From Acuticoccus sediminis (GTDB taxonomy: Bacteria; Pseudomonadota; Alphaproteobacteria; Rhizobiales; Amorphaceae), in NCBI RefSeq assembly GCF_003258595.1, contig NZ_QHHQ01000004.1, forward strand, positions 620,001-684,000: a stretch of DNA of 64,000 bases, in the 5' to 3' direction. A program made the translations under genes and the position numbers. The notes under the pieces were generated by a model. That model was not told the DNA's origin. It searched no databases and saw nothing but the letters and a program-made list of their open reading frames with translations. Positions 31,824-48,864 of this stretch are shown in pieces (the first letter of the stretch is position 1; every line of letters starts with the position of its first letter).

Positions 31824-31859
31824 CATGCATTCTGTGCGTGTGCTCGGGAAGAATGCATG
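31824..31859 (+). promoter_or_regulatory. Inverted repeat covering the tupB start codon
   Basis: CATGCATTCT (31824-31833) is perfectly complemented by AGAATGCATG (31850-31859), with a 16-base loop that contains the candidate Shine-Dalgarno GGGAA. The last three bases of the right arm are the ATG of tupB. As DNA it is a 10-base dyad suited to a repressor; as RNA the hairpin would hide both the start codon and the ribosome site. Control of tungstate uptake through this element is inference. Confidence 0.55.
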
Positions 31860-32564
31860 GAAAGCCTAGGTAGCGCAGTGGCCGACGCGTTCGGCCTCGT
31901 CCTCTCCGGTGACCCGGCTCTCATGGAGATCATCGGGCTGTCGCTGCGCGTGACCCTCTCGGCCGTCGTCCTCGCGTGCCTCTTCGGCCTGCCGATCGGC
32001 GCGGCCGCCGGCGCCTTCCGCTTCCCGGGCCGGACCGCCCTCGCCGTCGTCCTCAATGCGCTGATGGGGCTGCCGCCCGTCGTGGTCGGCCTCGGCGTCT
32101 ACCTGACGCTCTCCGCGTCGGGACCGCTCGGCGTCCTCGGGCTTCTCTACACGCCGACCGCGATGGTGATCGCGCAGACGATCCTCGTGACCCCCATCGT
32201 CGCGGCGCTGACCCGGCAGGTGATCGAGGACCTCAACAGCGAATATGCCGAGCAGTTCGCCTCCCTCGGGGTGCGCGGGACGGACCGCGTCGGCGCCCTC
32301 CTCTGGGATGCGCGCTACAGCCTTCTCACGGTGGCGCTCGCCGGCTTCGGCCGGGCCATCGCCGAGGTCGGCGCCGTCATCATCGTCGGCGGCAACATCA
32401 ACCACGTCACCCGCGTGATGACGACGACCATCGCGCTCGAAACCTCGAAGGGGAACCTCAGCCTCGCGCTGGCGCTCGGCGTGGTGCTCCTGGCGATCGC
32501 TTTCATCGTCAACGCCCTCGTGATGGCGGTACGCGCCTCCGCGGCCCGGTCGGCCTATGCCTGA
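31857..32564 (+). CDS. tupB: Tungstate ABC transporter permease, TupB type
   Basis: A 235-residue inner-membrane permease with about five or six segments. It follows the TupB/WtpB pattern: SLRVTLSAVVLACLFGLPIGAAAGAF, VLNALMGLPPVVVGLGVYLTLSASGPLG, LYTPTAMVIAQTILVTPIVAALT, and the EAA loop EQFASLGVRGTDRVGALLWDARYSLLT followed by GFGRAIAEVGAVIIVGGNI. These distinguish oxyanion importers of tungstate type from ModB. The start codon lies within an inverted repeat. It overlaps tupC by 8 bases. The nearby formate dehydrogenase is the probable consumer of the metal. Confidence 0.92.
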   Translation: MESLGSAVADAFGLVLSGDPALMEIIGLSLRVTLSAVVLACLFGLPIGAAAGAFRFPGRTALAVVLNALMGLPPVVVGLGVYLTLSASGPLGVLGLLYTPTAMVIAQTILVTPIVAALTRQVIEDLNSEYAEQFASLGVRGTDRVGALLWDARYSLLTVALAGFGRAIAEVGAVIIVGGNINHVTRVMTTTIALETSKGNLSLALALGVVLLAIAFIVNALVMAVRASAARSAYA

Positions 32565-33336
32565 AGCGCTGCGCCCCATCGCCCCGGAGCCCGGCGCGAG
32601 TGTCGTCCCCCTCGCCGCCCCGCTCGTCGAGGCGCGTGACGTCACCTTCGCCGTACGCGGGCGGCGGCTGGTGGATGGTGTGCGCCTCGCCGTGCGCCCG
32701 GGCCGAAGCACCGTCGTGCTCGGTGCCAACGGGGCGGGAAAGAGCCTCCTGCTGCGCCTTCTCCACGGCCTCATCGCCCCCACCGGCGGTGCCGTCCTGT
32801 GGCGCGGCAGCCCGCTGGACCGCGCTGCGCGGCGCCATCAGGCGATGGTGTTCCAGCGCCCGGTCATGCTGCGCCGCTCGGCCCGGGCGAACGTCGCCTT
32901 CGCCCTCGGGGTGCGCGGCATCGCCTCCCGCGACCGCGCCGCCCGCGTCGACGAGGCGCTCGAGCGTGCCCGCCTGACGGCTCTCGCAGCGCAGCCCGCC
33001 CGGCTCCTCTCCGGCGGCGAACAGCAGCGGCTGGCCCTCGCCCGTGCGCTGGTGACCGAGCCCGAGCTCCTGTTCCTGGACGAGCCCACCGCGAGCCTCG
33101 ATCCGGCCTCCACGCATGCCATCGAGGGGCTGATCGACGACGCGCGCGCCGCCGGGGTGACCATCGTCATGGTGACCCACGACCGCGGGCAGGCCGAGCG
33201 GCTCGCCGACGACGTCGTCTTCCTTCACCGGGGACGCGTCGCCGAGCACGGGCCGGCGAGCCGCGTCCTCGACGCGCCGCAGTCCGAGCCGTTCCGCGCC
33301 TGGCTCGACGGCCGGCTCTACCTTGATCCCGCCTGA
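32557..33336 (+). CDS. tupC: Tungstate ABC transporter ATP-binding protein, TupC type
   Basis: A 259-residue ATPase. Walker A is GANGAGKSLL, the signature LLSGGEQQRLALARAL, Walker B LLFLDEPTASLD and the H-loop VTHDRGQAERLADD. The short C-terminus lacks the TOBE domain of ModC, as expected for TupC. It overlaps tupB by 8 bases and is followed by tupA after 42 bases. The N-terminal 25 residues are Pro/Ala-rich and may not all be translated. Confidence 0.92.
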   Translation: MPEALRPIAPEPGASVVPLAAPLVEARDVTFAVRGRRLVDGVRLAVRPGRSTVVLGANGAGKSLLLRLLHGLIAPTGGAVLWRGSPLDRAARRHQAMVFQRPVMLRRSARANVAFALGVRGIASRDRAARVDEALERARLTALAAQPARLLSGGEQQRLALARALVTEPELLFLDEPTASLDPASTHAIEGLIDDARAAGVTIVMVTHDRGQAERLADDVVFLHRGRVAEHGPASRVLDAPQSEPFRAWLDGRLYLDPA

Positions 33337-33378
33337 CGCGCCCTCACGAACACGAAACGACCAACGGGAGGCTTCCTG

Positions 33379-34209
33379 ATGATCCGACGCCAATTTCTCG
33401 CCCTCGCCGCGGCCGGCCTCTTCGCCGTGTCGCTCGCCGGCGCCGCCGACGCGGCGGACGACTTCATCGTCGTGCAGTCGACCACGTCGACGCAGAACTC
33501 CGGCCTGTTCGACTTCATGCTGCCGAAGTTCACCGACAAGACCGGGATCGAGGTGCGCGTCGTCGCCGTCGGCACCGGGCAGGCCATCAAGAACGCCGCG
33601 AACGGCGACGGCGACGTCCTCTTCGTACACGCCAAGCCGGCGGAGGAGAAGTTCGTGGCGTCCGGCGAGGGCGTCTCGCGCCACGACGTGATGTACAACG
33701 ACTTCGTCATCGTCGGCCCGCCGTCCGATCCGGCCGGGATCGCCGGTTCGAAGGACGTCGTCGCCGCCCTCTCCAGGATCGCCGGATCCGAGGCGCCGTT
33801 CGCCTCGCGCGGCGACGACTCGGGCACCAACAAGGCCGAGCTCCGCCTCTGGAAGGAGGCCGGCATCGACGTCGCGTCAGCCTCCGGCGGGTGGTACCGC
33901 GAGACGGGCTCGGGGATGGGCGCCACGCTCAATACCGGCACCGGCATGGGCGCCTACATCATGACCGACCGCGCCACCTGGATCGCCTTCGGCAACAAGG
34001 GCGACTACGCGATCGCCGTCGAGGGAGACCCGAAGCTCTTCAACCAGTACGGCATCATCCTGGTGAACCCGGAGAAGCATCCGAACGTGAAGGCGGAGGC
34101 GGGACAGTCCTTCATCGACTGGGTCCTCTCCGACGAGGGCCAGGACGTCATCGCCGACTACAAGGTCGACGGGCAGCAGCTCTTCTTTCCCAACGCCCGC
34201 CCCGACTGA
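33379..34209 (+). CDS. tupA: Tungstate ABC transporter substrate-binding protein, TupA type
   Basis: A 276-residue periplasmic protein with a clear Sec signal peptide (MIRRQFLALAAAGLFAVSLA, cleavage near ADAADD at about residue 26). The mature N-terminus has VVQSTTSTQNSGLFDFMLPKF; the TTS oxyanion loop and the later GDDSGTNKAELRLW block are hallmarks of TupA. Length fits the family. Preceded by GGGAGGC. TupA selects tungstate over molybdate with very high affinity in characterised members; here that selectivity is inferred. It closes the tupBCA operon and is convergent with the regulator gene. Confidence 0.94.
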   Translation: MIRRQFLALAAAGLFAVSLAGAADAADDFIVVQSTTSTQNSGLFDFMLPKFTDKTGIEVRVVAVGTGQAIKNAANGDGDVLFVHAKPAEEKFVASGEGVSRHDVMYNDFVIVGPPSDPAGIAGSKDVVAALSRIAGSEAPFASRGDDSGTNKAELRLWKEAGIDVASASGGWYRETGSGMGATLNTGTGMGAYIMTDRATWIAFGNKGDYAIAVEGDPKLFNQYGIILVNPEKHPNVKAEAGQSFIDWVLSDEGQDVIADYKVDGQQLFFPNARPD

Positions 34210-34218
34210 TCCGCCGGT

Positions 34219-34231
34219 CGGGCGCGGCCCG
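34219..34231. terminator. Small GC hairpin between tupA and the regulator
   Basis: CGGGC/GCCCG (34219-34223 and 34227-34231) with a 3-base loop lies in the 24-base gap between convergent stops. Weak, without T-run. Confidence 0.25.
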
Positions 34232-34233
34232 CA

Positions 34234-35118
34234 TCAGGCGGAGAGCCAGCGGACCGTTCCGACCTCGGAGACGTCGTAGCCTCCCATCGCGTCCGCCTTC
34301 GCGGCGAAGGCGGGCGTCCGGCAGAACGCCATCAGCTGCTGCACCGGAGGGGTGAAATAGGCGTGGCGGTCGACGAGGAGGTCGAACCGCTCCTCCACCA
34401 GCGGCAGGAAGTCCAGCCGGAACTGCCGCGCCACCGCCTCGAGGCCCAGCGCGGCGTCGGCGTCGCCGGCATAGACCGTCGCGGCGGCGTCCGTCTCGGT
34501 CCGTGCGACGGTCTCGTGCGCCACGATGGACCCGGCCACGCCCGCCTCCTCGCAGAGGCGGTCGTGCAGCGAGCGCGTGCCGGACCCCGGCTGGCGCAGG
34601 ACCACGCGCCGCCCCGCGAGATCGGCGAAGCCCGACAGCGGCCCCGTCGCGGCGCTGGAATGGATGAGGCCCTGCCGCCGGCGGGCGAAGGCGATCAGCA
34701 CGACGTTCGTCGGCCGCGCCGCGGCGACCGTCTCGATGTTCCAGCCCTCGTCTTCAGGGACATGCATGGCCGCGAGCGCCGCCTCCCCGCGCAGGAAGCG
34801 CTCCAGCCCGTCGCCGCTGCCGTCCAGCAGCGCCGCGAGGCCCGAGCGCGACTCGCGCAGCGCCCAGTCGAGCAGCGGGTCGTGCGAGCCGACCACGACG
34901 GCCGGCCGCTCGGCCTGACGCGTCCCGACCGGCTCGCCGCTGATCCAGGCGTCGATCTCGTCCTTGGGGAAGAGCAGCTTGCCGGTGACACGGCGGTGCG
35001 GGATCTCCCCCGCGGCGGCAAGCTCGTAGACCTTGCGTTCCTTCACGCGCAGGAGGTCGGCCACCTCGCGGGTGGTCAGGTAGACTGGTGCTTTCGTCTC
35101 TCGCTCCACGATCGTCAA
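34234..35118 (-). CDS. Excisionase-type HTH / periplasmic-binding-fold transcriptional regulator
   Basis: A 294-residue protein. Residues 12-60 form an excisionase/MerR-like helix-turn-helix (VYLTTREVADLLRVKERKVYELAAAGEIPHRRVTGKLLFPKDEIDAWI). From about residue 75 to the end it has a type II binding-protein-like domain of the PBP-like/LysR-substrate type found in molybdate-linked regulators (VVVGSHDPLLDWALRES, FADLAGRRVVLRQPGSGTRSLHDRLC, ATVYAGDADAALGLEAVARQFRLDFLPLVEERFDLLV). Such proteins occur next to molybdate or tungstate importers and Mo/W-enzymes and probably sense the oxyanion or cofactor. It lies between tupBCA and the fdh operon, so it could control both. DNA target and ligand are inference. 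Confidence 0.85.
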   Translation of the reverse strand: MTIVERETKAPVYLTTREVADLLRVKERKVYELAAAGEIPHRRVTGKLLFPKDEIDAWISGEPVGTRQAERPAVVVGSHDPLLDWALRESRSGLAALLDGSGDGLERFLRGEAALAAMHVPEDEGWNIETVAAARPTNVVLIAFARRRQGLIHSSAATGPLSGFADLAGRRVVLRQPGSGTRSLHDRLCEEAGVAGSIVAHETVARTETDAAATVYAGDADAALGLEAVARQFRLDFLPLVEERFDLLVDRHAYFTPPVQQLMAFCRTPAFAAKADAMGGYDVSEVGTVRWLSA

Positions 35119-35276
35119 CGTGTGTCCCCAACGCGCCGGAGCGTTCCCCTAGCGCATCACCCGCCCGAAATGAATCAATTCGCGCAAGATGATGATACGC
35201 CAAAATCGCGGTGCGGACGCCCGCACGCGCATGCCTCGGGGCTCGGCGCCCCGCGGCCCGGCTCCGGCTCGCGCGG

Positions 35277-35411
35277 TCAGTTGAGGCGGACGGAGTCCGG
35301 GGCGGCCGTGCGCTCGGCCGTGGACCAGCCCACGAGCTCGCTGTTGAGCACGTAGTACGCCCCGACCGAGATCACGGCGATCATGACGAAGGAGAGAAGC
35401 ATCGCGCGCAT
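35277..35411 (-). CDS. 44-residue single-pass membrane peptide at the end of the fdh operon
   Basis: The peptide MRAMLLSFVMIAVISVGAYY continues VLNSELVGWSTAERTAAPDS and ends VRLN. One hydrophobic segment (residues 3-22) is followed by a polar, slightly acidic tail. Start ATG at 35411 lies 8 bases after the stop of the WD40/cytochrome gene, with GGAG upstream, so it is probably the last gene of the operon. The N-in, tail-out topology would put the tail in the periplasm near the cytochrome domain. I know no named family; a small accessory subunit is plausible. Confidence 0.6.
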   Translation of the reverse strand: MRAMLLSFVMIAVISVGAYYVLNSELVGWSTAERTAAPDSVRLN

Positions 35412-35419
35412 GGGGTGTG

Positions 35420-36859
35420 TCACTCCGTGTTCTGGCGCAGGAAGTCGATCAAATCGTGCCGGTCCCTGGCATCGGTGATGCGCTGCATCGGCATGTTCGA
35501 ACCCGGCACGTAGTGCTCGGGACCGAGGTCGAAGAGCGCGCCGAGGGTCGCCTCGGACCAGATGATATCGCTGTGGGACAGCATTTCCGAATACCGGTAG
35601 CCCGGCACCGTGCCGGCCGGGCGGCCGATGATCCCGGCGAGGGTCGGTCCGGCGCGGCGGTCGCCGCCGCCGGTGAGGGTGTGGCAGACGCTGCACTTGC
35701 GCTGGAACTGCCGCTCCCCGTTGTCCATCTCCTCCGGCGGACGCAGGAACGGGCGCTGCACGGCGCCGAGCACCGGAGCCGTGATGCCGGTCGCGGCGAT
35801 GACGGCGGCGCTGTCGTCGATCCCGCCGGCGACGAGGTGGGCGTCGTCCGCGAAGGACAGCGCCCACACCGGCCCGCGCGCGGTGGCCGCGCTGTCGGAG
35901 GTGACCGTCCACCCGTTCGTCTCCACCACCATGACGTGGCCCTCCCCGTCGCCGATGGCGAGCTGGCCGCAGTCCGGCGAAAGGGCCAGCGCCAGCACGG
36001 GCCGGCGGCCGGCGGAGAGGTCGGCGACGGTGGTCCCGTCCGCGAGGGAGGCGACGCGCGTGACCCCGTCGACGGCCCCGTAGGCGATCCAGCCGGCGGC
36101 GGCGTTGACGGCGAGGACGTTGATGGCGAAGCCGTGCCGGGCGAGCACCCGCGTCTCCGCCCCGGTCGCGAGCGACCAGACGCGCAGGCTGCCGTCCGCC
36201 GAGGCGCTCGCGAGCGTGGCATCGTCGACGAACGCGACCGCGTTGACGGCGCCGTCGTGCCCGGTGAGCCAGCGTTCCAGGGCGCCGTCCGCGGACCAGA
36301 TGCCGATCCTGCCGTCCCACCCGGCCGTGGCGATCCGCGTCCCGCCGGGCGACACGGCGACGTCCGCCACCGTCCCCTGATGCCCCTCCAGCCGGTGGAT
36401 GGGCGTGCCGGCCGCGAGGTCCCAGACAATCGCCGAGAAGTCGTCGCCGGAGGAAACGGCCTGGGTCGGCGAGAGCCGCGTGACGGACTTCACCGCCGCG
36501 CGGTGGCCCTCCAGCCAGCGCGCCGTCCCGGTCGCGAGGTCCCAGTAGCCGACGGAGTTGTCGAACGAGGCGGTCAGCGCGTCGGTCGGGGTCGCGGCGA
36601 CGTCCATGACCGGGCCGCCGTGCCCGCTCAGGCGCTCCGCGAAGGTACCCGCGGGAGGGTTCGCTGCGGCCGGCCGCGGCAGACCGGCCAGCGCGGCGGC
36701 GAGGACCGCCGCCACCACGGCCGCGCACAGGACGGGCGCGACGGGGACCGCGGGCCGCAGCGCGCGCGGACTACTCGGCCGGGGCAACGGCTCCGTCCGG
36801 TGCGCCGCGCCTGGCCGCTTCCGCCTCGCGCTTGGCGACCCACAGGTCGTGGTGCTCAC
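35420..36859 (-). CDS. WD40 beta-propeller fused to a class I cytochrome c
   Basis: A 479-residue protein with a hydrophobic signal/anchor segment at about residues 36-60 ending at PRPAAANPP. Residues 75-360 hold about seven WD40-like repeats (GHGGPVMDVAATPTDALTASFDNSVGYWDL, GHQGTVADVAVSPGGTRIATAGWDGRIGIWS and so on). Residues 378-479 are a c-type cytochrome: CSVCH (Cys389, Cys392, His393) and the likely axial Met456 or Met458 in GSNMPMQ. It therefore sits in the periplasm. The start overlaps the end of fdhC by 89 bases; a later GTG pair at 36718/36715 is the main alternative. It could carry electrons from, or scaffold, the formate dehydrogenase. Confidence 0.85.
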   Translation of the reverse strand: MSTTTCGSPSARRKRPGAAHRTEPLPRPSSPRALRPAVPVAPVLCAAVVAAVLAAALAGLPRPAAANPPAGTFAERLSGHGGPVMDVAATPTDALTASFDNSVGYWDLATGTARWLEGHRAAVKSVTRLSPTQAVSSGDDFSAIVWDLAAGTPIHRLEGHQGTVADVAVSPGGTRIATAGWDGRIGIWSADGALERWLTGHDGAVNAVAFVDDATLASASADGSLRVWSLATGAETRVLARHGFAINVLAVNAAAGWIAYGAVDGVTRVASLADGTTVADLSAGRRPVLALALSPDCGQLAIGDGEGHVMVVETNGWTVTSDSAATARGPVWALSFADDAHLVAGGIDDSAAVIAATGITAPVLGAVQRPFLRPPEEMDNGERQFQRKCSVCHTLTGGGDRRAGPTLAGIIGRPAGTVPGYRYSEMLSHSDIIWSEATLGALFDLGPEHYVPGSNMPMQRITDARDRHDLIDFLRQNTE

Positions 36860-38051
36860 GCGCCCAGTTGATGTCCACCTGCCCGGTGCCCATCGCGTCG
36901 AAGGCGCCTTCCATGCCGATGGTGCCGATGTAGATGTGGGCGAGGATCACCGCCATCATCCCGAAGGCGACGATGGAGTGCCAGAGCTGGGCGAGCTGCT
37001 GCTCCTCCTGCGGGGCGAGCTGGGTCGGCAGGTGCCAGCCGAAGAGGCCGGGGATGCCGGTCCAGTCGATCGCCTGGAAGGTCTTGGCGAACATCGGCAT
37101 CTCGAACGGGAAGAGCAGCGCGAGGCCGGTCAGCGAGACCGAGGCGCCGAGCAGGATCGTCACCCAGAAGACGACCTTCTGGCCCGCGTTGAACTTCTTC
37201 GAATGCGGGTGTCCCTTGCCGATGATGCCGCCGCCGGCCTTGATCCACTGCCAGTCGGTCCTGGACGGGATATTGTGCCAGACCCAGAACAACAGCACCA
37301 TCACGAGCCCCAGCATGAAGGCCCAGGAGACGTTGTTGTGCACCCACTTGGTGGCGGTGACGCCGGCCGAGTAGGCTTCCTTGCCCATCACGTCCATGAG
37401 GTAGCTGCGGCCGAAGAGCATGAAGAGGCCGGACAGCGCCAGCAGCACGAACGAGCCCGCCAGGAGCCAGTGCGCGAAGCGCTCGATGAAGGTGAAGCGC
37501 AGGATGGTCCGGCCCGCCTTGCCGGCGCGGATGCGGATCCGCCCGCGGATCAGGAAGAACAGCGCCAGGATGCCGATGACGCCGATCAGCAGGTAGCCGC
37601 CCCACTCCCGCAGCGGTCCGCGCCGCACCTTGAGCCACTCCATGCCGCCGGTCTGGATGAGGACGCCCGCGGCCGGGGTGTGCGCGGTCGTGCGCACGTC
37701 CTCGGTGCCGTAGCGGATCGCGCGGTAGGCGTCGGGATAGGAAAGGCCGGAGCCGAGCTGGCCGGCGATCGTCGCCGCGGAATGCGGGTCGGCGCCCCCT
37801 GCCGAGCCGGCCTCGGGCGCGGTGCGCAGGACGGGCTCGAGGGCGTTCTCGCCGCGCTGGCGCGCGAGGATGCGGTTGAGCTGGTCGTCGGCGGACGGGC
37901 TGTCGGCGCGGCTGAGGCCGCCCGGCTGCCGCGCGATCCCGCTCTCGGGCTTGCTCGGAAGCTGCTCCTGCGCCGCGGCGGGCTGGAGGAAGAGGCCCGC
38001 GAACATCGCGAGAAGAACGGCGGCAAGCCAGCACTTTTCGAGCCAGCGCAT
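36771..38051 (-). CDS. fdhC: Formate dehydrogenase gamma subunit (cytochrome b556) with N-terminal periplasmic extension
   Basis: A 426-residue protein. The first 27 residues look like a signal peptide (CWLAAVLLAMFAGLFLQPAAAQ). Residues 28-150 form a polar extension not found in short FdnI-like subunits, then four membrane helices follow: GGYLLIGVIGILALFFLI, FAHWLLAGSFVLLALSGLFM, WAFMLGLVMVLLFWVWHNI, and VVFWVTILLGASVSLTGLALLF, with a last helix near SIVAFGMMAVILAHIYIGTIGMEG. Histidines in FAHWLLAG, HNNVSW, HNIPS, WHS and AHIYIG are heme b and quinone-site candidates. ATG at 38051 has AAGGAG in front. It links the enzyme to the quinone pool or to the periplasmic cytochrome. Confidence 0.9.
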   Translation of the reverse strand: MRWLEKCWLAAVLLAMFAGLFLQPAAAQEQLPSKPESGIARQPGGLSRADSPSADDQLNRILARQRGENALEPVLRTAPEAGSAGGADPHSAATIAGQLGSGLSYPDAYRAIRYGTEDVRTTAHTPAAGVLIQTGGMEWLKVRRGPLREWGGYLLIGVIGILALFFLIRGRIRIRAGKAGRTILRFTFIERFAHWLLAGSFVLLALSGLFMLFGRSYLMDVMGKEAYSAGVTATKWVHNNVSWAFMLGLVMVLLFWVWHNIPSRTDWQWIKAGGGIIGKGHPHSKKFNAGQKVVFWVTILLGASVSLTGLALLFPFEMPMFAKTFQAIDWTGIPGLFGWHLPTQLAPQEEQQLAQLWHSIVAFGMMAVILAHIYIGTIGMEGAFDAMGTGQVDINWAREHHDLWVAKREAEAARRGAPDGAVAPAE

Positions 38052-38149: not shown

Positions 38150-38746
38150 TCAGTTCTGCTGCTGGTCGCCGTAGGCGGTGCCCCAGCCCCACGCACCGGA
38201 GCCGAAGCCACGGGCGACGACGCGCTCGCGGTAGATGTCGGAAACGTCGTCACCGTCGCCGGCGAGGAGCGCCTTGGTGGAGCACATCTCCGCGCAGAGA
38301 GGCAGCTTGCCCTCGGCGATGCGGTTGCGCCCGTACTTGGCGAACTCGGCCGCCGAGCCGTCCGGCTCCGGACCGCCGGAGCAGAAGGTGCACTTGTCCA
38401 TCTTGCCGCGGGAGCCGAAGTTGCCGGCCTGCGGGTACTGCGGCGCACCGAACGGGCACGCGTAGAAGCAGTAGCCGCAGCCGATGCACAGGTCCTTGGA
38501 GTGCAGCACGATGCCGTCGGACGTCTGGTAGAAGCAGTCCGTCGGGCAGACCGCCATGCAGGGGGCGTCCGAGCAGTGCATGCAGGCCACCGAGATGGAC
38601 CGCTCGCCCGCCTGACCGTCGTTGATCGTCACCACCCTCCGGCGGTTGATCCCCCACGGCACCTCGTTCTCGTTCTTGCAGGCGGTGACGCAGGCGTTGC
38701 ACTCGATGCAGCGCTCGGAGTCACACAGGAATTTTGCGCGTGCCAT
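38150..38746 (-). CDS. fdhB: Formate dehydrogenase beta subunit, four [4Fe-4S] ferredoxin
   Basis: A 198-residue electron-transfer subunit. It has four cysteine groups: CIECNACVTACKNENEVP, CMHCSDAPCMAVCP, CIGCGYCFYACPFGAP, and CTFCSGG...CAEMCSTKAL, enough for four [4Fe-4S] clusters, as in FdnH-like subunits without the C-terminal membrane anchor. It has no signal peptide, so it would be exported with the Tat-bearing alpha subunit as a complex. AGGGGGA precedes the ATG; fdhA ends 10 bases upstream. Confidence 0.94.
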   Translation of the reverse strand: MARAKFLCDSERCIECNACVTACKNENEVPWGINRRRVVTINDGQAGERSISVACMHCSDAPCMAVCPTDCFYQTSDGIVLHSKDLCIGCGYCFYACPFGAPQYPQAGNFGSRGKMDKCTFCSGGPEPDGSAAEFAKYGRNRIAEGKLPLCAEMCSTKALLAGDGDDVSDIYRERVVARGFGSGAWGWGTAYGDQQQN

Positions 38747-41750: not shown

Positions 41751-41837
41751 CGTACCTCTCCCTCGCGCCGTTGGCGCCCGCTTCTCGGTGGTCGGCCGAA
41801 CCAGCGCGGCCGACACGTCATGTGACCGGCGTCCGGC

Positions 41838-42035
41838 TCAGAACCGGGCGGTCTCCAGGTATTTCGACACGTGCGCGGTCTTGCGCAGTCCGGTGGTCTC
41901 CGGCGTCTCGGTGGTGGCCTCGGCCGGTGCCGCGCCCGCCACGGTGGCCGCCGCGACGGCCGGTGCGCCGAGCCCGACGAGCTTCAGCGCATCGCGCCGC
42001 GTGGCGCCGGCGGGCTTGTCGCTCTGTTGTGTCAT
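41838..42035 (-). CDS. Small Tat-signal protein of formate dehydrogenase loci
   Basis: A 65-residue peptide consisting mainly of a twin-arginine signal (GATRRDALKLVGLGAPAVAA, then ATVAGAAPAEA) and a 25-residue tail ending KTAHVSKYLETARF. It matches the short formate dehydrogenase-region Tat-target family. It may help assembly or export. It overlaps the chaperone gene by 4 bases and is 87 bases upstream of fdhA on the same strand. Confidence 0.88.
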   Translation of the reverse strand: MTQQSDKPAGATRRDALKLVGLGAPAVAAATVAGAAPAEATTETPETTGLRKTAHVSKYLETARF

Positions 42036-42706
42036 TGCGTTCTCCCTGAAGCGGATGAAGCCGCGGCGGAGGCCATCCGGAAGGCCTCGATCTCGATGTC
42101 CATGAAGGCCCGCCCCATCGCGCCGACGGGCGCGTAGAGGAGCGAGCCCGACGCGCCCTCGAGGTCGGCGAAGAAGTGGCCGGCCCAGGGGGCGATGTGG
42201 GTGTTGAAGAAGGCCTCCTGGTCGGCGACCGACAGGCGCGTGCCGTAGTCGCCGCGGATCAGGCCGGCCATCATCTCGCAGAGGCTGGCGACGTGGTCCT
42301 CGGGGTCGCGCGTCGCGTCCGAGCGGGCGATGCCGAGCTGGCGCATGTGGCCGCGCAGGACCGCGAGCGGCTTCTCGTTGAGGAATCCCGTCAGGTAGTA
42401 GCTGGCGTAGGGCACCAGTTCGCCGCGGCCGATGCCGATGAAGAGCGCGTTGTATTCGCGCTCTGCGGCACGCGGCTCGGTCTGCGCCGCGACCTTCGAC
42501 AGCGCGGTGACGGACTGGCCGATCGGGCTCTGGTCGCCGGACAGACTTGCAAGATGGCCGAGCGTCGTCGCATCCGGCGGATCCGAGAGGAGCGCCGCGA
42601 GCAGACCGTAAAGGTCGGCCCGCACGGCCTCTTCGTCCGCGATCGGAGATTGATCGACGTTGGCAGGCGCCTCCCGCCTGGGATCGTGGGCCGTCTGAGC
42701 AGGCAT
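42032..42706 (-). CDS. TorD/DmsD-family molecular chaperone
   Basis: A 224-residue all-helical protein of the TorD family, which binds Tat signals and apo-forms of molybdo- or tungstoenzymes until the cofactor is inserted. Family features are RADLYGLLAALLSDPPDATTLGHLA at the start, EREYNALFIGIGRGELVPYASYYLTGFLNEKPLAVLRGHMRQLGI in the middle, and DPEDHVASLCEMMAGLIRGDYG plus FFNTHIAPWAGHFFADLEGA, the E-P-x-D-H-like core. First gene of the fdh operon and overlapping the small Tat-signal gene, so it most likely serves FdhA. Confidence 0.9.
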   Translation of the reverse strand: MPAQTAHDPRREAPANVDQSPIADEEAVRADLYGLLAALLSDPPDATTLGHLASLSGDQSPIGQSVTALSKVAAQTEPRAAEREYNALFIGIGRGELVPYASYYLTGFLNEKPLAVLRGHMRQLGIARSDATRDPEDHVASLCEMMAGLIRGDYGTRLSVADQEAFFNTHIAPWAGHFFADLEGASGSLLYAPVGAMGRAFMDIEIEAFRMASAAASSASGRTQ

Positions 42707-42755
42707 TCTCAGAATTCTTTTAATTACACACCTGACTTGAATTAAGGCTAAACTT

Positions 42756-42809: not shown

Positions 42810-42832
42810 CCGGCGCGAACCGCGACGGACTC

Positions 42833-43627
42833 TCAGGAGACCTCGAAGCGCATGCGCGGTGCGCGCCGCACCGGCGTATCGGCCACGTTTTCGCCATCAT
42901 GAGGCGGCCCGGCGGGCCGGGCCGTCGGCCCGTTCGCCGCCGATTCCGCGCTTTCGCCACCCTTGCCGCCACGTGTCGGCTGGCCGCCCCCGGGGCCGTC
43001 CTGCGAGGCGGGGATGAGGCCATCTGCCGCGGCATCCCCGCAACCAGTCCGGGAGGCATCGACGGTTCGCGCGTCGCCGCCCGGGACCGCGCCCGGTCCG
43101 CCGCCAGCAACATCGGACAAATGCGACCCGGCCGGTGCGTCCATCCCCTCGGTCGTCGCGGATGTGTCCGGGGCCGGGGCGTCCGCCGGCAACGCGGCAT
43201 CGACCCTTGCGGCCGCCCTTCGAAAGCCTCGGCCGATCGCGTAGGCCGTCTGCAGGACGCCGGGCGAGGTCGCCGCGTCGGTATAGTCCTCGGCGTAGTC
43301 GACGAGGCCGTCGAGGTTGGCGAACACGGGGTTGCTGCGCCAGAGCCGGCGCATCGCGCGGCGGCGGATGGCGTCCGGCACCGCGCCCTTCAGGTAGGCA
43401 GAAAAGTCCGCGTCCGGCGCCAGCGCGTCGGGATCGGCGAGCCCCGTCCGCTCCAGGAACTCCGCCTCCGACTCCGGGCCGGCGGGAGCGGTTTCCGTCG
43501 TCCCTCCGGTCTCCGGCGCGAGCGCCTCGGCCGCCTCGGCCGCCTCGGGCGCCAGCGGCGGCTCGGCTGCCGGGTCCTGCTCGAGGCCGCGCTTGCGGCG
43601 CGACCAGCGCTCCAGAACGCCCGTCAT
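42833..43627 (-). CDS. DUF3306 domain-containing protein
   Basis: A 264-residue protein. The N-terminal VLERWSRRKRG motif and the block LADPDALAPDADFSAYLKGAVPDAIRRRAMRRLWRSNPVFANLDGLVDYAEDYTD (about residues 62-115) are the DUF3306 core. The N-terminal Glu/Ala segment and the C-terminal 120 residues are low-complexity Pro/Gly/Ala sequence. DUF3306 and DUF3305 genes go together next to formate dehydrogenase and molybdoenzyme genes, but the function is not known to me. It overlaps the DUF3305 gene by 4 bases. Cytoplasmic by lack of signal. Confidence 0.9.
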   Translation of the reverse strand: MTGVLERWSRRKRGLEQDPAAEPPLAPEAAEAAEALAPETGGTTETAPAGPESEAEFLERTGLADPDALAPDADFSAYLKGAVPDAIRRRAMRRLWRSNPVFANLDGLVDYAEDYTDAATSPGVLQTAYAIGRGFRRAAARVDAALPADAPAPDTSATTEGMDAPAGSHLSDVAGGGPGAVPGGDARTVDASRTGCGDAAADGLIPASQDGPGGGQPTRGGKGGESAESAANGPTARPAGPPHDGENVADTPVRRAPRMRFEVS

Positions 43628-44217
43628 CCGCCGGGCCCCCGCTTCTGCTGGCTCGGCACGCGGTAGACGTCGGCGAGCTGGCGGATGCGCTTGTCCCCGA
43701 CCCCGTCCTCGACGAGGTCGACGCGCTGCTTGTCACGCCGCCGCTTCACGAACTCTTCGTCGACGTAGTGGGCGGTCACGAACGCCTCGACGAAGGCTGC
43801 GAGGCCGTCGGGCATGGCCACCGGCTCGACCTGCATCTCGCCGCTGTCGGTATAGTCCTGCGCCTCGTACGCGGAGGCGGTGAGCGCGACGAGCTCCGGC
43901 CGCTCGTCCCGGCGTGGCCCGGTCGGCCGCATCACGACGAAGACCGAGGGCGGCGTCATCGACAGCGACACGCGGTAGGCCTCGACGTCGGTGCGGAAGA
44001 GGTCCAGCGAGAGCGTCGCGGCATGATACTCGGCGGCGTCGTCCTCCTCGCGCAGGGTGCGCCAGTCGGCCGAACCCGCGCCGGGGAGAAGGGCGACGGG
44101 CATGTAGACCCACCTCGCCCAGCGGGTGCGGCCGGGCGTGCGCCGAACGACCACCCCGACCGGCAGCTTCGCCGTGCGGGACGGGATCGGCTCCGGACCG
44201 GTCGCCGCGTCGTCCAT
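43624..44217 (-). CDS. DUF3305 domain-containing protein
   Basis: A 197-residue protein. The core KLPVGVVVRRTPGRTRWARWVYMPVALLPGAGSADWRTLREEDDAAEYHAATLSLDLFRTDVEAYRVSLSMTPPSVFVVM with PVEVVAMPDGLAAFVEAFVTAHY-like QVEPVAMPDGLAAFVEAFVTAHYVDEEFVKRRRD is DUF3305. The ATG at 44217 has GGGGGAG before it; an in-frame TTG 8 codons upstream is less likely. It precedes and overlaps DUF3306 and is divergent from the four-cluster ferredoxin gene, all probably for assembly of the formate dehydrogenase. The biochemical role is unknown. Confidence 0.88.
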   Translation of the reverse strand: MDDAATGPEPIPSRTAKLPVGVVVRRTPGRTRWARWVYMPVALLPGAGSADWRTLREEDDAAEYHAATLSLDLFRTDVEAYRVSLSMTPPSVFVVMRPTGPRRDERPELVALTASAYEAQDYTDSGEMQVEPVAMPDGLAAFVEAFVTAHYVDEEFVKRRRDKQRVDLVEDGVGDKRIRQLADVYRVPSQQKRGPGG

Positions 44218-44258
44218 GTCGCTCCCCCTTTGATCGTTCAAGGTAGAATTATGATTTA

Positions 44259-44269
44259 GACAATGTCAA
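44259..44269 (-). promoter_or_regulatory. Possible promoter element in the DUF3305/ferredoxin divergent gap
   Basis: TTGACA (minus strand, 44269-44264) overlaps the dyad GACAATGTC (44259-44267) in an AT-rich patch between the divergent genes. It may be a -35 box with an operator for the DUF3305-DUF3306 side. The -10 box is not clear. Confidence 0.3.
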
Positions 44270-44320
44270 AGGAAGGACCCGGCAAGCCGCACGCCCCGGT
44301 TGATCCGTACGGAGTTCGCC

Positions 44321-46330
44321 ATGTCAGTCGATCACCTGCTCCTGTGCACCTGCGGCGCCAGCCAGTCCGTCGATGCGGACACCGCCGGCGCGGCGGTCGG
44401 TGCCAAGGGCGTGCGCGTCTGCGAGCGGCTCTGCACGGCGGAGATCGCCGTCGCGGAGGGCGCGCTGGCGGCGGGTACGACGATGATCGCCTGCGGCCAA
44501 CAGACGCGTCAGTTCACCGACCTCGCGAGCGAAATGGGCGCCGGCGACCGGCTCCAAACGGTGGACATCCGTGACCGCGCCGGCTGGACCGACGCGGCGG
44601 AGGCCCACGCCAAGCAGGCCGCTCTGCTGGCGCTCGCCGCGCTCCCCGTGCCGCCCGCCCCGGCGATGGAGATCACCTCGGGCGGCGTCTGCCTGATCCT
44701 CGGCGGAACGGCGCCGGCCGGCGGGGACGCCGCGCTGCATGCCGCCGCCAAGCTCGCGGAGACGCTCTCGGTCACCTGCCTCCTCGCCGAACCGCCCGGC
44801 GACCTCGTGCCGACCGACCTCTTCGACGTCGCGCTCGGCCGCGTGCGCAACCTCGGCGGCGCCCTCGGTCGCTTCGACGTCACCGTCGACGGCTACGCCG
44901 CCGCCGACCCGGCGGGGCGCGGCGGCGCCGCGTTCGGCCCGGCCATCGACGGCGCCCGCTCGGCTTGCGACATCGTCCTCGACCTCACCGGCGGCCCCGC
45001 CTTCGTCCCGGCACCCCACAAGCGCGACGGCTACGTGAGGGCCGACCCGAAGAGCCCCGCCGACGTCGCCCGCGCCGTCGCCGAGGCGGCCGAGCTGGTC
45101 GGCACCTTCGAGAAGCCGCTCTACGTTCGGTTCGACCCGGCGCTGTGCGCCCACTCGCGGGCCAGCCAGACGGGCTGCACCCGCTGCCTCGACCTCTGTC
45201 CCACAGGCGCCATCACCTCGGCCGGCGACACGGTGGCGATCGACCCGCTGATCTGCGCCGGCTGCGGCGAGTGCGCGGCGGTGTGCCCGACCGGCGCCGC
45301 ATCCTACGACGCTCCGCCGGTCGAGAGCCTCTTCGCGCAGCTCTCCACCCTCGCCCGCGCCTTCCGCAGGGCCGGCGGAACCGCGCCGCGCGTCCTCTTC
45401 CACGACGCCGCGTTCGGGAGCGAGATGATCGCCCTCTCGGCGCGTTTCGGGCGGGGCCTGCCGCCGGACGTCATTCCGCTGGAGGTCCCCAACGTGGAGC
45501 TCGTCGGCCACGCCGAGCTGATGGCCGCGCTCGGCGTCGGCTTCGCGTCGGCGGCGGTCCTCGAGAGCCCGCGCACCGACGCCGACAGTCTCGCCCGCGA
45601 GATCGCGACCGCCCGGGCCATCGTCACCGGAACCGGCGGGGATCCGGGACGCATCGCGAGCCTCGCCCCGTCCGACCCGGACGCCCTCGAGGAGGCGCTG
45701 TGGACCGCCGCGCCCGCCCCGCCCGCGACCGAACCCATCCTGCCGCTCGGCGGCCGGCGCGAGGTGACCCGCCTTGCCGCGAAGGCGCTGGCGAAGGCGG
45801 CCGGCGGGGAGGTCCCCGGTCCGATCGCTCTCACCGAACGGGCCCCCTACGGCGCCATCGCCATCGACACCGGCGCCTGCACGCTGTGCCTTGCCTGCGT
45901 CTCGCTCTGCCCCACCGGCGCGCTCGCCGACAACCCGGACAAGCCGCAGGTGCGCTTCCAGGAGACGGCCTGCGTCCAGTGCGGCATCTGCCGGACGGCC
46001 TGTCCCGAGAACGCTATCGCGCTCGTGCCGCAGCTCGACCTCGCGAACGCGGCGATGACGCACCGCGTCCTCAACGAGGAGGAGCCGTTCGAGTGCATAT
46101 CCTGCGGCAAGCCGTTCGGCGTGCGCTCGACGATCGAGCGCGTGGTGGAGAAGCTGGCGGGCAAGCACTGGATGTACTCCGGCTCCGACAATGTGCGGCT
46201 GATCCAGATGTGCGATGATTGCCGGGTGAACGCGCAGTACCATTCCGACAGCTCGCCCTTCCGCATGGGCGACCGGCCGCGGATCATGACCACCGCGGAC
46301 GAGATCGAACGCAACAAGAAGATGAACTGA
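44321..46330 (+). CDS. Large 4Fe-4S ferredoxin-type protein of formate dehydrogenase loci
   Basis: A 669-residue soluble protein. Four ferredoxin motifs are visible in two pairs: CTRCLDLCPTGAI and CAGCGECAAVCPTGAA near residues 287-330, then CTLCLACVSLCPTGAL and CVQCGICRTACPENAI near 525-570. The C-terminus adds CISCGKPFG and CDDCRVNAQ, a possible metal site. The N-terminal 200 residues begin with LLLCTCGASQSVDADTA and have several conserved cysteines. ATG at 44321 follows GGAG. It is the first gene of a plus-strand operon facing the DUF3305/3306 pair; these three types co-occur with formate dehydrogenases, so a redox or sulfur-delivery role in maturation is plausible. Confidence 0.88.
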   Translation: MSVDHLLLCTCGASQSVDADTAGAAVGAKGVRVCERLCTAEIAVAEGALAAGTTMIACGQQTRQFTDLASEMGAGDRLQTVDIRDRAGWTDAAEAHAKQAALLALAALPVPPAPAMEITSGGVCLILGGTAPAGGDAALHAAAKLAETLSVTCLLAEPPGDLVPTDLFDVALGRVRNLGGALGRFDVTVDGYAAADPAGRGGAAFGPAIDGARSACDIVLDLTGGPAFVPAPHKRDGYVRADPKSPADVARAVAEAAELVGTFEKPLYVRFDPALCAHSRASQTGCTRCLDLCPTGAITSAGDTVAIDPLICAGCGECAAVCPTGAASYDAPPVESLFAQLSTLARAFRRAGGTAPRVLFHDAAFGSEMIALSARFGRGLPPDVIPLEVPNVELVGHAELMAALGVGFASAAVLESPRTDADSLAREIATARAIVTGTGGDPGRIASLAPSDPDALEEALWTAAPAPPATEPILPLGGRREVTRLAAKALAKAAGGEVPGPIALTERAPYGAIAIDTGACTLCLACVSLCPTGALADNPDKPQVRFQETACVQCGICRTACPENAIALVPQLDLANAAMTHRVLNEEEPFECISCGKPFGVRSTIERVVEKLAGKHWMYSGSDNVRLIQMCDDCRVNAQYHSDSSPFRMGDRPRIMTTADEIERNKKMN

Positions 46331-46360
46331 CGGGCCGCACCGGCCCACCGGAGAACCCGA

Positions 46361-46585
46361 ATGACCGACACGACGCCTGACGCCTTCAACATGAGCCTGC
46401 GCAAGTTCCTCAAGACGGTCGGCGTCACCTCCCAGCGCGAGATCGAGGAGGCGGTGCGCGCCGCGCGCGAGGCCGGCGCCCTCCCCGCCGGCCCGGTCAG
46501 CGCGAAGGTCACCCTGACGGTCGAGTCGCTCGGCCTCACCCACGAGGTCGACGGCTCCATCGACATGCCCGCCGATGGTCGATGA
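46361..46585 (+). CDS. DUF6494-like small protein
   Basis: A 74-residue acidic protein: FNMSLRKFLKTVGVTSQREIEEAVRAAREAGALP and a C-terminal AKVTLTVESLGLTHEVDGSI segment. It resembles the DUF6494 family, often found with Mo/W-enzyme maturation genes. It sits 30 bases after the ferredoxin gene and overlaps the Mrp-type ATPase gene by 11 bases, so it belongs to the same operon. Function unknown. Confidence 0.8.
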   Translation: MTDTTPDAFNMSLRKFLKTVGVTSQREIEEAVRAAREAGALPAGPVSAKVTLTVESLGLTHEVDGSIDMPADGR

Positions 46586-47696
46586 GGCTGCCGTCCGCGC
46601 CGCGCTCGCCCAGATCCTCGATCCGGGGCGCGGGACGGACATCATCACCGCCGACCAGGTCAAGGCGCTGACCATCCGCGACGGCCAGGTGAGCTTCATC
46701 CTGGAGGTCGACGCCGCGCGCGGAGCCGCGATGGAGCCGGTCCGCGCGGCGGCCGAGCGGGCCGTCGCGGCGCTCCCGGGCGTGGAGCGCGTCAGCGCGA
46801 TCATGACCGCGCACGCCGTCGCCGGCGCCCCGCGCACGATGCCGCACGCCGAGAGCCCGGCCCCGCCGCGCCCCCACGCGCACTCGCACGCGCACACGGC
46901 CGCCGCCCCCGCGGCGCCGCAGAAGCCGCAGAACCCCGCCGGTGTGAAGACGGTGATCGCCGTCGCGTCCGGCAAGGGGGGCGTCGGCAAGTCGACGGTC
47001 GCGGCGAACCTCGCCGTCGCGCTCGCCGCGCGCGGCAAGAAGGTCGGCATGCTGGACGCGGACGTCTACGGACCCAGCCAGCCGCGCATGCTGGGCGTCT
47101 CCGGCCGTCCCTCGAGCCCGGACGGCAGGATCATCCTGCCCCACCGCAACCACGGCGTGACGCTCATGTCGCTCGGCCTGATGGTGGGCGAGGACGAGGC
47201 GCTCGTCTGGCGCGGCCCGATGCTGATGGGGGCGCTGCAGCAGATGCTGAGCCAGGTGCAGTGGGGCCGCCTCGACGTCCTGGTCGTCGACCTGCCGCCC
47301 GGCACCGGCGACGTGCAGATGACGCTCTGCCAGAACGCCGACGTCGCGGGTGCGGTCGTCGTCTCCACCCCGCAGGACATCGCGCTGATCGACGCGCGCA
47401 AGGGCATCGACATGTTCCGCAAGATGGGCACGCCCATCCTCGGCCTCATCGAGAACATGTCCGCCTTCGTGTGCGACGGGTGCGGCAAGGTCCACCACCC
47501 CTTCGGCCACGGCGGCGCGAAGGCGGAGGCGGAGAAGCTCGGCGTCCCCTTCCTCGGCGAGATCCCGCTCGACCTCGACATCCGCGTCGCCGGTGACGGC
47601 GGCGCGCCCATCGTGGTGCTGAAGCCGGAGAGCCCGCAGGCGGAGGCCTTCTTCGCGGTCGCGGACGCCCTCATCGCCTCGGACGCGCTCCGGTGA
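46575..47696 (+). CDS. Mrp/NBP35 (ApbC-type) iron-sulfur cluster carrier ATPase
   Basis: A 373-residue protein. The N-terminal 80 residues are a MIP18-like domain (AVRAALAQILDPGRGTDIITADQVKALTI), then a His/Pro/Ala linker (residues 85-120), then the P-loop ATPase: ASGKGGVGKSTVAANLAVALAARGKKVGMLDADVYGPSQPRML (deviant Walker A), VVDLPPGTGDVQ (Walker B), and the cluster-binding CDGCG. It scaffolds or transfers [4Fe-4S] clusters. In this operon it likely loads the ferredoxin subunits of the formate dehydrogenase, although a general housekeeping role cannot be ruled out. Confidence 0.93.
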   Translation: MVDEAAVRAALAQILDPGRGTDIITADQVKALTIRDGQVSFILEVDAARGAAMEPVRAAAERAVAALPGVERVSAIMTAHAVAGAPRTMPHAESPAPPRPHAHSHAHTAAAPAAPQKPQNPAGVKTVIAVASGKGGVGKSTVAANLAVALAARGKKVGMLDADVYGPSQPRMLGVSGRPSSPDGRIILPHRNHGVTLMSLGLMVGEDEALVWRGPMLMGALQQMLSQVQWGRLDVLVVDLPPGTGDVQMTLCQNADVAGAVVVSTPQDIALIDARKGIDMFRKMGTPILGLIENMSAFVCDGCGKVHHPFGHGGAKAEAEKLGVPFLGEIPLDLDIRVAGDGGAPIVVLKPESPQAEAFFAVADALIASDALR

Positions 47697-48394
47697 GCGA
47701 CCTCGCCGACGCCCCGCTCTTCCCGCCGCTCCTCTCCGGCGAGGCGGTCGGCACCGACCCGTTCGCCGCGGCGGTGGAGCGGGCGGCGGCGGGGGTGCGG
47801 CCTGGGACCATCCTCTACCGCGAGACGGAGGGCGCGCTGTCGGCCGCCATCGTCCTCGCCCCGGAGCTGCCGCTGGCGGACGCCGTCGGCGTGGTCTTCG
47901 CGCTGCAGCTCGCGCTGGTCGACAGCCTCGGCGCGCTGGGACCTCCGGAGCTGGCGGTCCACCTCGTCTGGCCCGATCGCGCGCGGCTCAACGGCGCCGT
48001 CGGCCCGGTCTGGCGCGCGGCGGCGAGCCACGACGACCCGGACGCCGAGCCCGACTGGCTGGTCGTCGCCGTCGACATCCCGCTCTACACGCCGGGCGAC
48101 CGTCCCGGCGACACCCCCGAACGCACCACCCTCGCCGAGGAAGGGTTCGAGCCGATCGGCGGGAGGGCGATCCTGGAGAGCCTGTCGCGCCACATGCTGG
48201 TCTGGATCAACCGCTTCGTCGACGACGGCTTCGCCGCCATCGGCCCGACCTGGACGGCGGCCTGCGACGACGTCGGCGGCGAGATCGCCGCCCCCGTCGC
48301 CGGACGCATGCTGGGCATCGACGAGCGCGGCGGGCTCCTCGTCTCGTGCGACGGCCGGACGCGCACGCTCCCTCTCACGACGATGCTGCAATGA
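47693..48394 (+). CDS. Biotin/lipoate A/B ligase-family-like protein (DUF4444-type)
   Basis: A 233-residue protein with a ligase-like core: PGTILYRETEGALSAAIVLAPELPLADAVGVVFALQLALVDSLGALGPPELAVHLVWPDRARLNGAVG. The C-terminal part (GGEIAAPVAGRMLGIDERGGLLVSCDGRTRTLPL) resembles the small domain in biotin-protein ligases. The usual GRGRxxR biotin-binding motif is not seen, so it is probably not a plain BirA enzyme. It overlaps both neighbours by 4 bases within the formate dehydrogenase accessory operon, suggesting a role in cofactor or sulfur transfer. Family name is my best recall. Confidence 0.75.
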   Translation: MSDLADAPLFPPLLSGEAVGTDPFAAAVERAAAGVRPGTILYRETEGALSAAIVLAPELPLADAVGVVFALQLALVDSLGALGPPELAVHLVWPDRARLNGAVGPVWRAAASHDDPDAEPDWLVVAVDIPLYTPGDRPGDTPERTTLAEEGFEPIGGRAILESLSRHMLVWINRFVDDGFAAIGPTWTAACDDVGGEIAAPVAGRMLGIDERGGLLVSCDGRTRTLPLTTMLQ

Positions 48395-48864
48395 CCCATC
48401 TCGCCCGCGTGATCCGCCTCGACGAGAGCGACCTCAACGTCTTCGAGCATGCCGCCGAGCCCGGCGAGTGGGTGATCTCCGGCGCGTTCGCCTACTCCAA
48501 CTGGACGGAGGCGGACCTCACCGGCAAGCGCCGGCAGGCGTTCGCGCACGGCTGGCTCGGCCTCGAGACCTTCGGCCGTGCCTCCGTGGTGGCGGTCGCA
48601 CCGATCACCGAACGCGAATGGCAGGCGTGCGCCGAGGCCCTCGCGGACCATTTCGTCGCCCACTACGGCGCGCCGTCGCGACAGGCGGCGATGCCCGTCG
48701 CGCTGGAGGAGCTCGGCTACGCCCGCGACCTCTGCAACGACTACGAGCCCAACACGCTGATCCTGGTGGAACGGACCCTCGAACCGGTCGGCGTGCGCGA
48801 GCGCTTCCGGCCCATCGCCCCCACCGCCGCCCCGCTGGAGAGCTTCGCGGTGCACGGCTCCTAG
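48391..48864 (+). CDS. DUF6505-like protein
   Basis: A 157-residue cytoplasmic protein: ARVIRLDESDLNVFEHAAEPGEWVISGAFAYSNW, KRRQAFAHGWLGLETFGRASVVAV and LGYARDLCNDYEPNTLILVERTLEPVG. I recognise it as the DUF6505-type protein that follows the biotin-ligase-like gene in formate dehydrogenase accessory operons. Start ATG overlaps the previous stop (ATGA). Last gene of the plus-strand operon. No catalytic motif is evident. Confidence 0.72.
   Translation: MTHLARVIRLDESDLNVFEHAAEPGEWVISGAFAYSNWTEADLTGKRRQAFAHGWLGLETFGRASVVAVAPITEREWQACAEALADHFVAHYGAPSRQAAMPVALEELGYARDLCNDYEPNTLILVERTLEPVGVRERFRPIAPTAAPLESFAVHGS

Follow-up and report, generated by a model that had tools for sequence, protein, structure and literature searches.

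The subject of this work is a formate dehydrogenase (FDH) locus of the FDH3 type and its accessory genes in a 64,000-nucleotide stretch of the 7.76-Mb genome of Acuticoccus sediminis (NZ_QHHQ01000004.1, positions 620001-684000; G000:C4), hereafter the window. Several described systems resemble it. FDH-N and FDH-O of E. coli are likewise periplasmic formate dehydrogenases served by dedicated factors, FdhD and FdhE, and FdhD is also encoded in the genome studied here. FdhE is needed for the selenocysteine (Sec)-type FDH-N. The Nap system combines NapA, a molybdenum (Mo) enzyme exported by twin-arginine translocation (Tat), with a cytoplasmic protein carrying four [4Fe-4S] clusters, NapF, and a small chaperone, NapD (PMC10609526); the FDH3 locus of the window shows a comparable combination. 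In the tungsten (W)-cofactor pathway of M. extorquens FDH1 (MoeA1-MobB-MobA-FdhD), FdhD delivers the cofactor and, as in our locus, tup genes are linked to W-cofactor genes (PMC13197769); that work concerns FDH1, and its main text makes no mention of FDH3 or TorD. The closest precedent is PMC4464133, which describes TorD-fdhGHI operons with DUF3305, DUF3306, fer4, and fdh-tat genes, the same operon type as in the window, so that the link of DUF3305 and DUF3306 to formate dehydrogenase is already published. This bears out a first-pass annotation of the window, which had given it as general knowledge that the DUF3305/DUF3306/ferredoxin group accompanies such enzymes. The operon description in PMC4464133 terms DUF3305 and DUF3306 putative membrane proteins, whereas those of the window have no membrane segment; DUF6505, the ligase-like protein, DUF6352, Mrp, and the WD40-cytochrome c are not among the proteins that it mentions. 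For the second set of proteins (DUF6505, DUF6494, PF16917, and DUF4444), a search of the open-access literature, with subscription papers mostly outside its reach and DUF6352 not among its terms, returned no report; the open-access literature also held none joining formate dehydrogenase, FDH3, WD40, and cytochrome c.

Our analyses suggest, with a probability of about 0.68, that the accessory genes form a dedicated, FdhE-independent iron-sulfur (Fe-S)/cofactor maturation set for a periplasmic, cysteine (Cys)-type FDH3, in which the polyferredoxin would act like NapF.

Co-inheritance of the accessory genes with FDH3

Genes were called from open reading frames (ORFs), guanine-cytosine content by codon position, and Pfam and NCBIfam scans, and other loci were annotated with profiles built from the fetched loci. 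On the minus strand the window carries a WD40-cytochrome c gene, fdhC, fdhB, fdhA, a gene for a 65-aa twin-arginine peptide, torD, and the DUF3306 and DUF3305 genes; on the plus strand, divergently, lie the genes for the polyferredoxin, DUF6494, Mrp, the PF16917 ligase-like protein, and DUF6505. Past the WD40-cytochrome c gene are a tup-like ABC transporter (plus strand) and a regulator (minus strand). All genes named in the first-pass annotation were found again in place by Pfam, NCBIfam, or genome search; its list lacked one, the WD40-cytochrome c gene between the regulator and fdhC.

The accessory genes are co-inherited with FDH3. In a phylum sample of 195 genomes, our own included, DUF3305 and an FDH3 beta subunit above its cut-off occur in the identical 22 genomes (15 genera in each tally), always on one contig within about 11 kb of each other (Fisher p = 1.6e-29, for genomes that are not independent). 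The polyferredoxin N-domain was found in 20 of the 195, all within these 22; its signal is weak in G229, G258, and G339, and the searches of G214 and G247 did not detect it. A class sample of 172 genomes from the Alphaproteobacteria, which overlaps the first (G000, G022, G028, G154, and others are shared), gives a similar picture: DUF3305 occurs in 27 genomes, and the FDH3 beta subunit exceeds its cut-off in 24, all among the 27. The other three are G071, G127, and G125, of which the first two are incomplete genomes with fdhA severed by a contig end (L255 and L230). DUF6505 exceeds its cut-off in 16 class genomes, 15 of them inside the DUF3305 set (the outlier, G119, scores 79 bits), and the ligase-like PF16917 protein lies inside that set in 18 of 18. 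The last count derives from 19 matches above 100 bits, less G087 (114.7 bits), dropped as a BirA by its motifs; matches at or below 96 bits were excluded as a widespread paralogue, the few of them that were aligned carrying KWPN-like motifs. Matches below cut-off to DUF6505 (G091) and FdhE (G101) were left uncounted. The link of DUF3306 comes from gene order, the genome counts covering the other proteins.

The first-pass annotation had tied all the unnamed genes to this FdhA, and co-occurrence upholds that for DUF3305, the ferredoxin, the ligase-like protein, and DUF6505, as gene order does for DUF3306. DUF6494 has to be taken out of the group: 21 of the 31 class genomes that carry it are within the DUF3305 set and 10 are outside, the kind of occurrence without the enzyme that the annotation itself had said would count against it, and DUF6494 as an FDH-specific protein is thereby ruled out. 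Stretches were fetched from eight of these ten genomes without DUF3305, and in four of them (L246, L247, L249, and L251) it stands beside the succinate dehydrogenase genes sdhA/sdhB, so that its role may be a broader one in Fe-S metabolism or respiration.

Gene order points the same way. From at least 589 relatives, the best 80 make up the named loci, which over-represent the Mrp type of the window; frequencies were therefore taken from the class and phylum samples. Of the named loci, 66 extend 8 kb or more to the left of DUF6505, and 65 of these hold fdhA, torD, DUF3306, DUF3305, and the polyferredoxin gene together. Because co-occurrence and gene order both hold across genomes, the grouping of the locus is more than chance. 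Beyond this core, a second tier of genes varies with lineage. Thirty class and phylum loci, the window among them, carry DUF6505 or the ligase-like gene; in these, mrp alone is present in 9, DUF6352 (PF19879) alone in 16 (L222-L224, L226-L232, L317-L320, L322, and L323), both in 2 (L220 and L221), and neither in 3 (L234, L236, and L254), so that DUF6352 looks like an alternative to Mrp. Loci from families f157, f165, and f167, outside the class, have the core alone, with fdhD adjoining in six of six and a shorter polyferredoxin (553-575 aa) in five of six. The genes mobA-fdhD adjoin DUF3305 in L235, L239, L240, and L244. NCBIfam includes a MobA-DUF3305 model, to which the window DUF3305 aligns at 69.3 bits (cut-off 820); among those ORFs of the fetched loci that were annotated by profile, no DUF3305-MobA fusion occurs, the evidence for fusion being the NCBIfam model.

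The enzyme and its probable electron outlet

The enzyme of the locus is a cysteine-type FDH3 formate dehydrogenase with a Tat signal. FdhA (38757..41816, minus strand; PF00384 and PF01568) carries a Tat motif and the active-site sequence RICHS, with Cys and no in-frame TGA, as do 105 of 105 FDH3 fdhA ORFs tested for RICHS (a single ORF from each locus, scoring above 900 bits and longer than 700 aa). FdhB (38150..38746, minus strand) scores 341.1 bits against the FDH3 model NF038355 (cut-off 240) and lacks the Form-deh_trans anchor helix PF09163. The window enzyme thus differs from FDH-N/FDH-O (FdnGHI) on both counts, whereas PF09163 is present in all three FdhE-locus beta subunits tested and fdhA is interrupted by an in-frame TGA, in the context ARV[TGA]HGP, in six of the eight FdhE loci fetched; of the remaining two, L340 ends before fdhA, and the 12 kb of L341 contain no fdh gene. 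The loci read therefore pair FdhE with Sec-type FDH-N, and DUF3305/DUF3306/polyferredoxin with Cys-type FDH3.

The cytochrome b561 subunit FdhC (36771..38051, minus strand; TIGR01583, 127.1 bits, cut-off 115.85) has a long N-terminal extension; its start, probably the ATG at 38051, was picked by eye in an ORF extending to 38192. Next to it lies the gene for a putative secreted protein (35420..36859, minus strand, true start uncertain) with a hydrophobic N-terminal segment, a WD40 beta-propeller, and a Cytochrom_C domain with a CxxCH motif. Of 30 class loci with fdhC, 24 encode this WD40-cytochrome c; the six without it include L216, which ends 1.6 kb past fdhC, and it occurs in none of nine loci from outside the class. 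Its gene mostly adjoins fdhC and lies at the opposite end of the stretch in L222, L317, L318, L319, L322, and L323; CxxCH is retained in 21 of the 24 proteins. This distribution suggests that it is a cytochrome-linked electron outlet of FDH3.

FdhE and FdhD

In contrast to the E. coli system, no FDH3 genome in either sample encodes FdhE. The protein exceeds its cut-off in 4 of 172 class genomes and in none of the 27 with DUF3305, and in 22 of 195 phylum genomes and in none of the 22 with DUF3305/FDH3; the Acuticoccus genome gives no match. Five families (f2, f143, f157, f165, and f24) each hold both the FdhE and the FDH3 kind, never within one sampled genome.

FdhD, on the other hand, is retained in 25 of the 27 DUF3305 class genomes (not found in G044 and G122), and a replacement of FdhD by the accessory set was rejected on this ground; the host genome has three copies, all on contigs other than that of the window. 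The seven locus-linked FdhD proteins aligned (L139, L191, L210, L235, L239, L242, and L244) keep a single loop cysteine, TSGCA; the E. coli protein is described with two, and in R. capsulatus the loop cysteines are described as non-essential (PMC10609526).

Features of the accessory proteins

The polyferredoxin (44321..46330, plus strand; Fer4 domains) lies in a 676-aa ORF and has an HdrA-like N-domain, four [4Fe-4S] motifs, and two further CxxC pairs. The 16 cysteines of the four motifs and both CxxC pairs are invariant in 18 sequences. The N-domain matches three HdrA sequences at E = 2.4e-5 to 2.6e-4 (8rvv 2.4e-5, 5odc 2.6e-4); the flavin adenine dinucleotide/thioredoxin-reductase domain of HdrA did not appear in the Pfam scan of the ORF. 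It shares the four [4Fe-4S] motifs with NapF but differs in its length (about 670 aa), its HdrA-like domain, and its extra CxxC pairs. An FdhE homologue in its C-terminus was considered and rejected, since there is no FdhE structure in the best 60 of 151 matches; the top ones are C2H2 zinc fingers, matches that are probably compositional.

DUF3305 (43624..44241, minus strand, likely start 44217; PF11749, E = 9.1e-39), DUF3306 (42833..43627, minus strand; PF11748, 83.4 bits, cut-off 25), and DUF6505 (48391..48864, plus strand; PF20115, E = 1.0e-65) of the window have no hydrophobic segment, which rules out DUF3305 and DUF3306 as membrane proteins here. Across 12 sequences, DUF3306 shares a conserved core and an RMRF-like tail at the C-terminus. 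AlphaFold 2 models of DUF3305 and DUF6505 reach a predicted local distance difference test score of 87.6 and 93.9, and Foldseek found no PDB chain for either at E = 0.001 or better; a PDB sequence search with DUF3305, DUF6505, and DUF6494 (46361..46585, plus strand; PF20104, E = 2.5e-28) gave nothing better than E = 0.1. The models hint that DUF3305 and DUF6505 may be new folds. NapD, by comparison, has a ferredoxin-type fold (PMC10609526), whereas no fold relative of DUF3305 was detected in these searches.

The ligase-like protein (47693..48394, plus strand; PF16917, E = 7.5e-57) belongs to the family of PDB 3bfm (E = 2.8e-48), a biotin protein ligase-like entry with no assigned function, to which our locus adds a genomic context. 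It also has weak BirA matches, and its biotin/lipoate-ligase fold is predicted by sequence profile. Biotin ligases of the BirA kind carry a GRGRxxRxW loop and a catalytic Lys (KWPN). Neither motif is present in any of the 107 ligase-like ORFs above 170 bits in the fetched loci, 94 of which lie in loci with DUF3305 or fdhA, whereas the BirA-like row L064 carries both; an active biotin/lipoate ligase is thereby ruled out. Mrp (46575..47696, plus strand), of a general Fe-S carrier family, has the P-loop domain PF10609 (NUBPL; E = 5.9e-100) and PF01883 (FeS_assembly_P) and stays below the ApbC equivalog cut-off (NF008669, 318.3 bits versus 348). The TorD/NarJ-type chaperone lies at 42032..42706 (minus strand; PF02613, E = 4.4e-30), beside the 65-aa twin-arginine peptide (formate_TAT) at 41838..42035 (minus strand; TIGR02811, E = 1.2e-9, 38.3 bits, below the 48.45 cut-off).

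A proposed maturation line and its alternatives

From the gene content, co-inheritance, gene order, and domains of these loci, and from the Cys/Sec split in those that were read, we infer the following biochemical steps. FdhABC would work as a periplasmic cysteine-type formate dehydrogenase with the WD40-cytochrome c as its probable electron outlet, and the tup-like genes would supply it with oxyanion. In the cytoplasm, the core of TorD, DUF3305, DUF3306, and the polyferredoxin would prepare FdhA-FdhB for Tat export and so fill, for Cys-type FDH3, the place that FdhE has for selenocysteine-type FDH-N. The polyferredoxin would load the Fe-S/cofactor site of FdhA, or keep it reduced, before export, as NapF may do; in R. 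sphaeroides, Fe-S reconstitution of NapA is described as requiring NapF, a cytoplasmic protein with four clusters (PMC10609526). DUF3305 and DUF3306 may connect the MobA/FdhD cofactor hand-off to FdhA, and the lineage-specific second tier (Mrp or DUF6352, the dead ligase-like protein, and DUF6505) may supply Fe-S clusters to the core line. A cytoplasmic site of maturation is supported by the Tat motif of FdhA, set against DUF3305, DUF3306, and DUF6505 without a hydrophobic segment. The Fe-S delivery line proposed in the first-pass annotation thus seems plausible, given Mrp and the HdrA-like polyferredoxin.

Several observations weigh against a dedicated maturation set. One class genome, G125 (98% complete), is a real exception, with the accessory set but not its enzyme in the stretch read: it has DUF3306-DUF3305-mobA-fdhD and a divergent polyferredoxin (L244:8682-13064), no FDH3 beta subunit that passes the cut-off, and, over the 20 kb read, no fdhA. 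In G075, DUF3305 and the FDH3 beta subunit are 43 kb apart, and the phylum absences of that subunit and of the N-domain come from searches that scored the best 16 or 13 candidates per genome and are not exhaustive. The tiers also come apart: L144 has second-tier genes with no FDH genes in its stretch; 18 class and phylum stretches hold the core without any second-tier gene, one being encoded elsewhere in four such genomes (L220, L226, L234, and L236) and none seen in the others; and DUF6505 is unlinked in L220, L234, L236, and L254. The absence of FdhE is statistically weak (0 seen against 2.5 expected in the phylum sample, P about 0.06; P about 0.5 in the class sample), and PMC4464133 describes TorD-fdh species with 'fdhD/fdhE' in trans, although we did not find FdhE in FDH3 genomes. 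As for NapF, it is described as having little effect in E. coli and W. succinogenes (PMC10609526), and the likeness of the polyferredoxin to it is an analogy of cluster count, TIGR00402 giving 47.3 bits against a cut-off of 102.2.

Other roles for the accessory genes have to be weighed against maturation. The polyferredoxin, with its HdrA-like N-domain and four clusters, could belong to a redox partner system, serving as a cytoplasmic electron acceptor or donor in the manner proposed for HydN/YsaA with FDH-H; deletions of HydN/YsaA reduce FDH-H activity and have been read as alternative electron routes (PMC6004506); a Pyr_redox reductase encoded downstream (49036-50235) would fit. We consider this unlikely, as the Tat motif of FdhA, with FdhC and the WD40-cytochrome c giving a membrane/periplasmic electron route, means that the mature enzyme should be out of reach of a ferredoxin in the cytoplasm; moreover, the reductase is not conserved (a relative occurs only in L204 among loci L136-L255), and DUF3305/DUF3306 would be left unexplained. 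A second route of Mo/W-cofactor sulfuration, beside or instead of FdhD, would be in keeping with the frequent adjacency of mobA-fdhD to the set, with the single loop cysteine of the seven aligned FdhD proteins, and with the dispensability of these cysteines in R. capsulatus (PMC10609526). The special sulfur line that the first-pass annotation had entertained nevertheless finds little room, the known sulfur carrier FdhD being kept in nearly all DUF3305 genomes and present three times in the host, and Pfam scans of the set showing no rhodanese or cysteine desulfurase domain; we regard such a route as quite improbable. That the genes merely share a promoter region and a need for Mo/W and Fe, without direct action on FdhA, would suit the adjoining tup genes and regulator, the occurrence of DUF6494 without DUF3305, and the general nature of the Mrp family. 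It is very hard to reconcile with the exact co-occurrence of DUF3305 and the FDH3 beta subunit in 195 genomes, linked in every case, and with tup genes in only 29 of the 72 named loci with at least 4.5 kb right of DUF6505 (tup genes on the opposite side would be missed), where the accessory genes stay.

Beyond the maturation set itself, a wider scheme can be offered more tentatively, and it may well prove too broad: two assembly lines might exist, one with FdhE for Sec enzymes and an FdhE-independent one with DUF3305, DUF3306, and an HdrA-related polyferredoxin for Cys FDH3, the latter extended in Alphaproteobacteria and some gammaproteobacteria (Marinobacter and kin) by a dead biotin-ligase-fold protein, DUF6505, and interchangeable Mrp/DUF6352, with DUF3305 and DUF6505 perhaps being new folds devoted to this enzyme.

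Evolution and implications

In a quick tree of 55 FdhA sequences, the window falls in a clade of 25 rows (Shimodaira-Hasegawa-like approximate likelihood ratio test support, 100) from Paracoccaceae, roseobacters, Litorivicinus, and Marinobacter and kin, all of them mrp-type loci. Seven loci from the window's own order were fetched: six form a separate group, and the seventh, L320, was too short for inclusion. Because the window FdhA thus groups with the mrp-type clade, apart from the six loci of its own order, horizontal transfer of the cassette as one unit is probable.

There is demand for metal formate dehydrogenases as catalysts of CO2 reduction, and maturation is described as a bottleneck for one of them, the tungsten FDH1 of M. 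extorquens (PMC13197769, PMC13396061; neither is on FDH3). Should FDH3 depend on this set, producing the enzyme in another host would call for co-expression of the set. Our analysis further proposes a function open to test for six kinds of uncharacterised protein (DUF3305, DUF3306, DUF6505, DUF6352, the 3bfm-type ligase-like protein, and the HdrA-type polyferredoxin), along with one possible explanation of how FDH3 may be proofread without FdhE.

Oxyanion transport genes and gene boundaries

The overlapping genes of the first-pass annotation stand in part; some of the overlaps are due to over-long ORFs, and by-eye starts place fdhC at 38051, the ferredoxin at 44321, and DUF6505 at 48391. Its tungstate supply likewise holds as far as the ABC transporter genes are concerned: on the plus strand lie a tupB-like oxyanion permease gene (31857..32564; NF038017, 242.4 bits, cut-off 100), a tupC-like ATPase gene (32557..33336; PF00005, E = 5.1e-31), and a tupA-like binding protein gene (33379..34209; PF12849, E = 3.1e-47). 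The TupB (NF041773, 177.1 bits, cut-off 320) and TupA (NF041772, 221.9 bits, cut-off 400) scores stay below their cut-offs, so that the substrate may be either tungstate or molybdate. The regulator (34234..35118, minus strand), a putative oxyanion sensor, joins a helix-turn-helix domain (HTH_17, PF12728, E = 7.3e-15) to a PBP_like binding domain (PF12727, E = 3.8e-45) and matches NF011068, a model for a protein of molybdopterin biosynthesis, over its C-terminal part (413-644). Upstream of tupB, a phosphonate-type binding protein (PF12974) is encoded at 30779-31615 on the plus strand.

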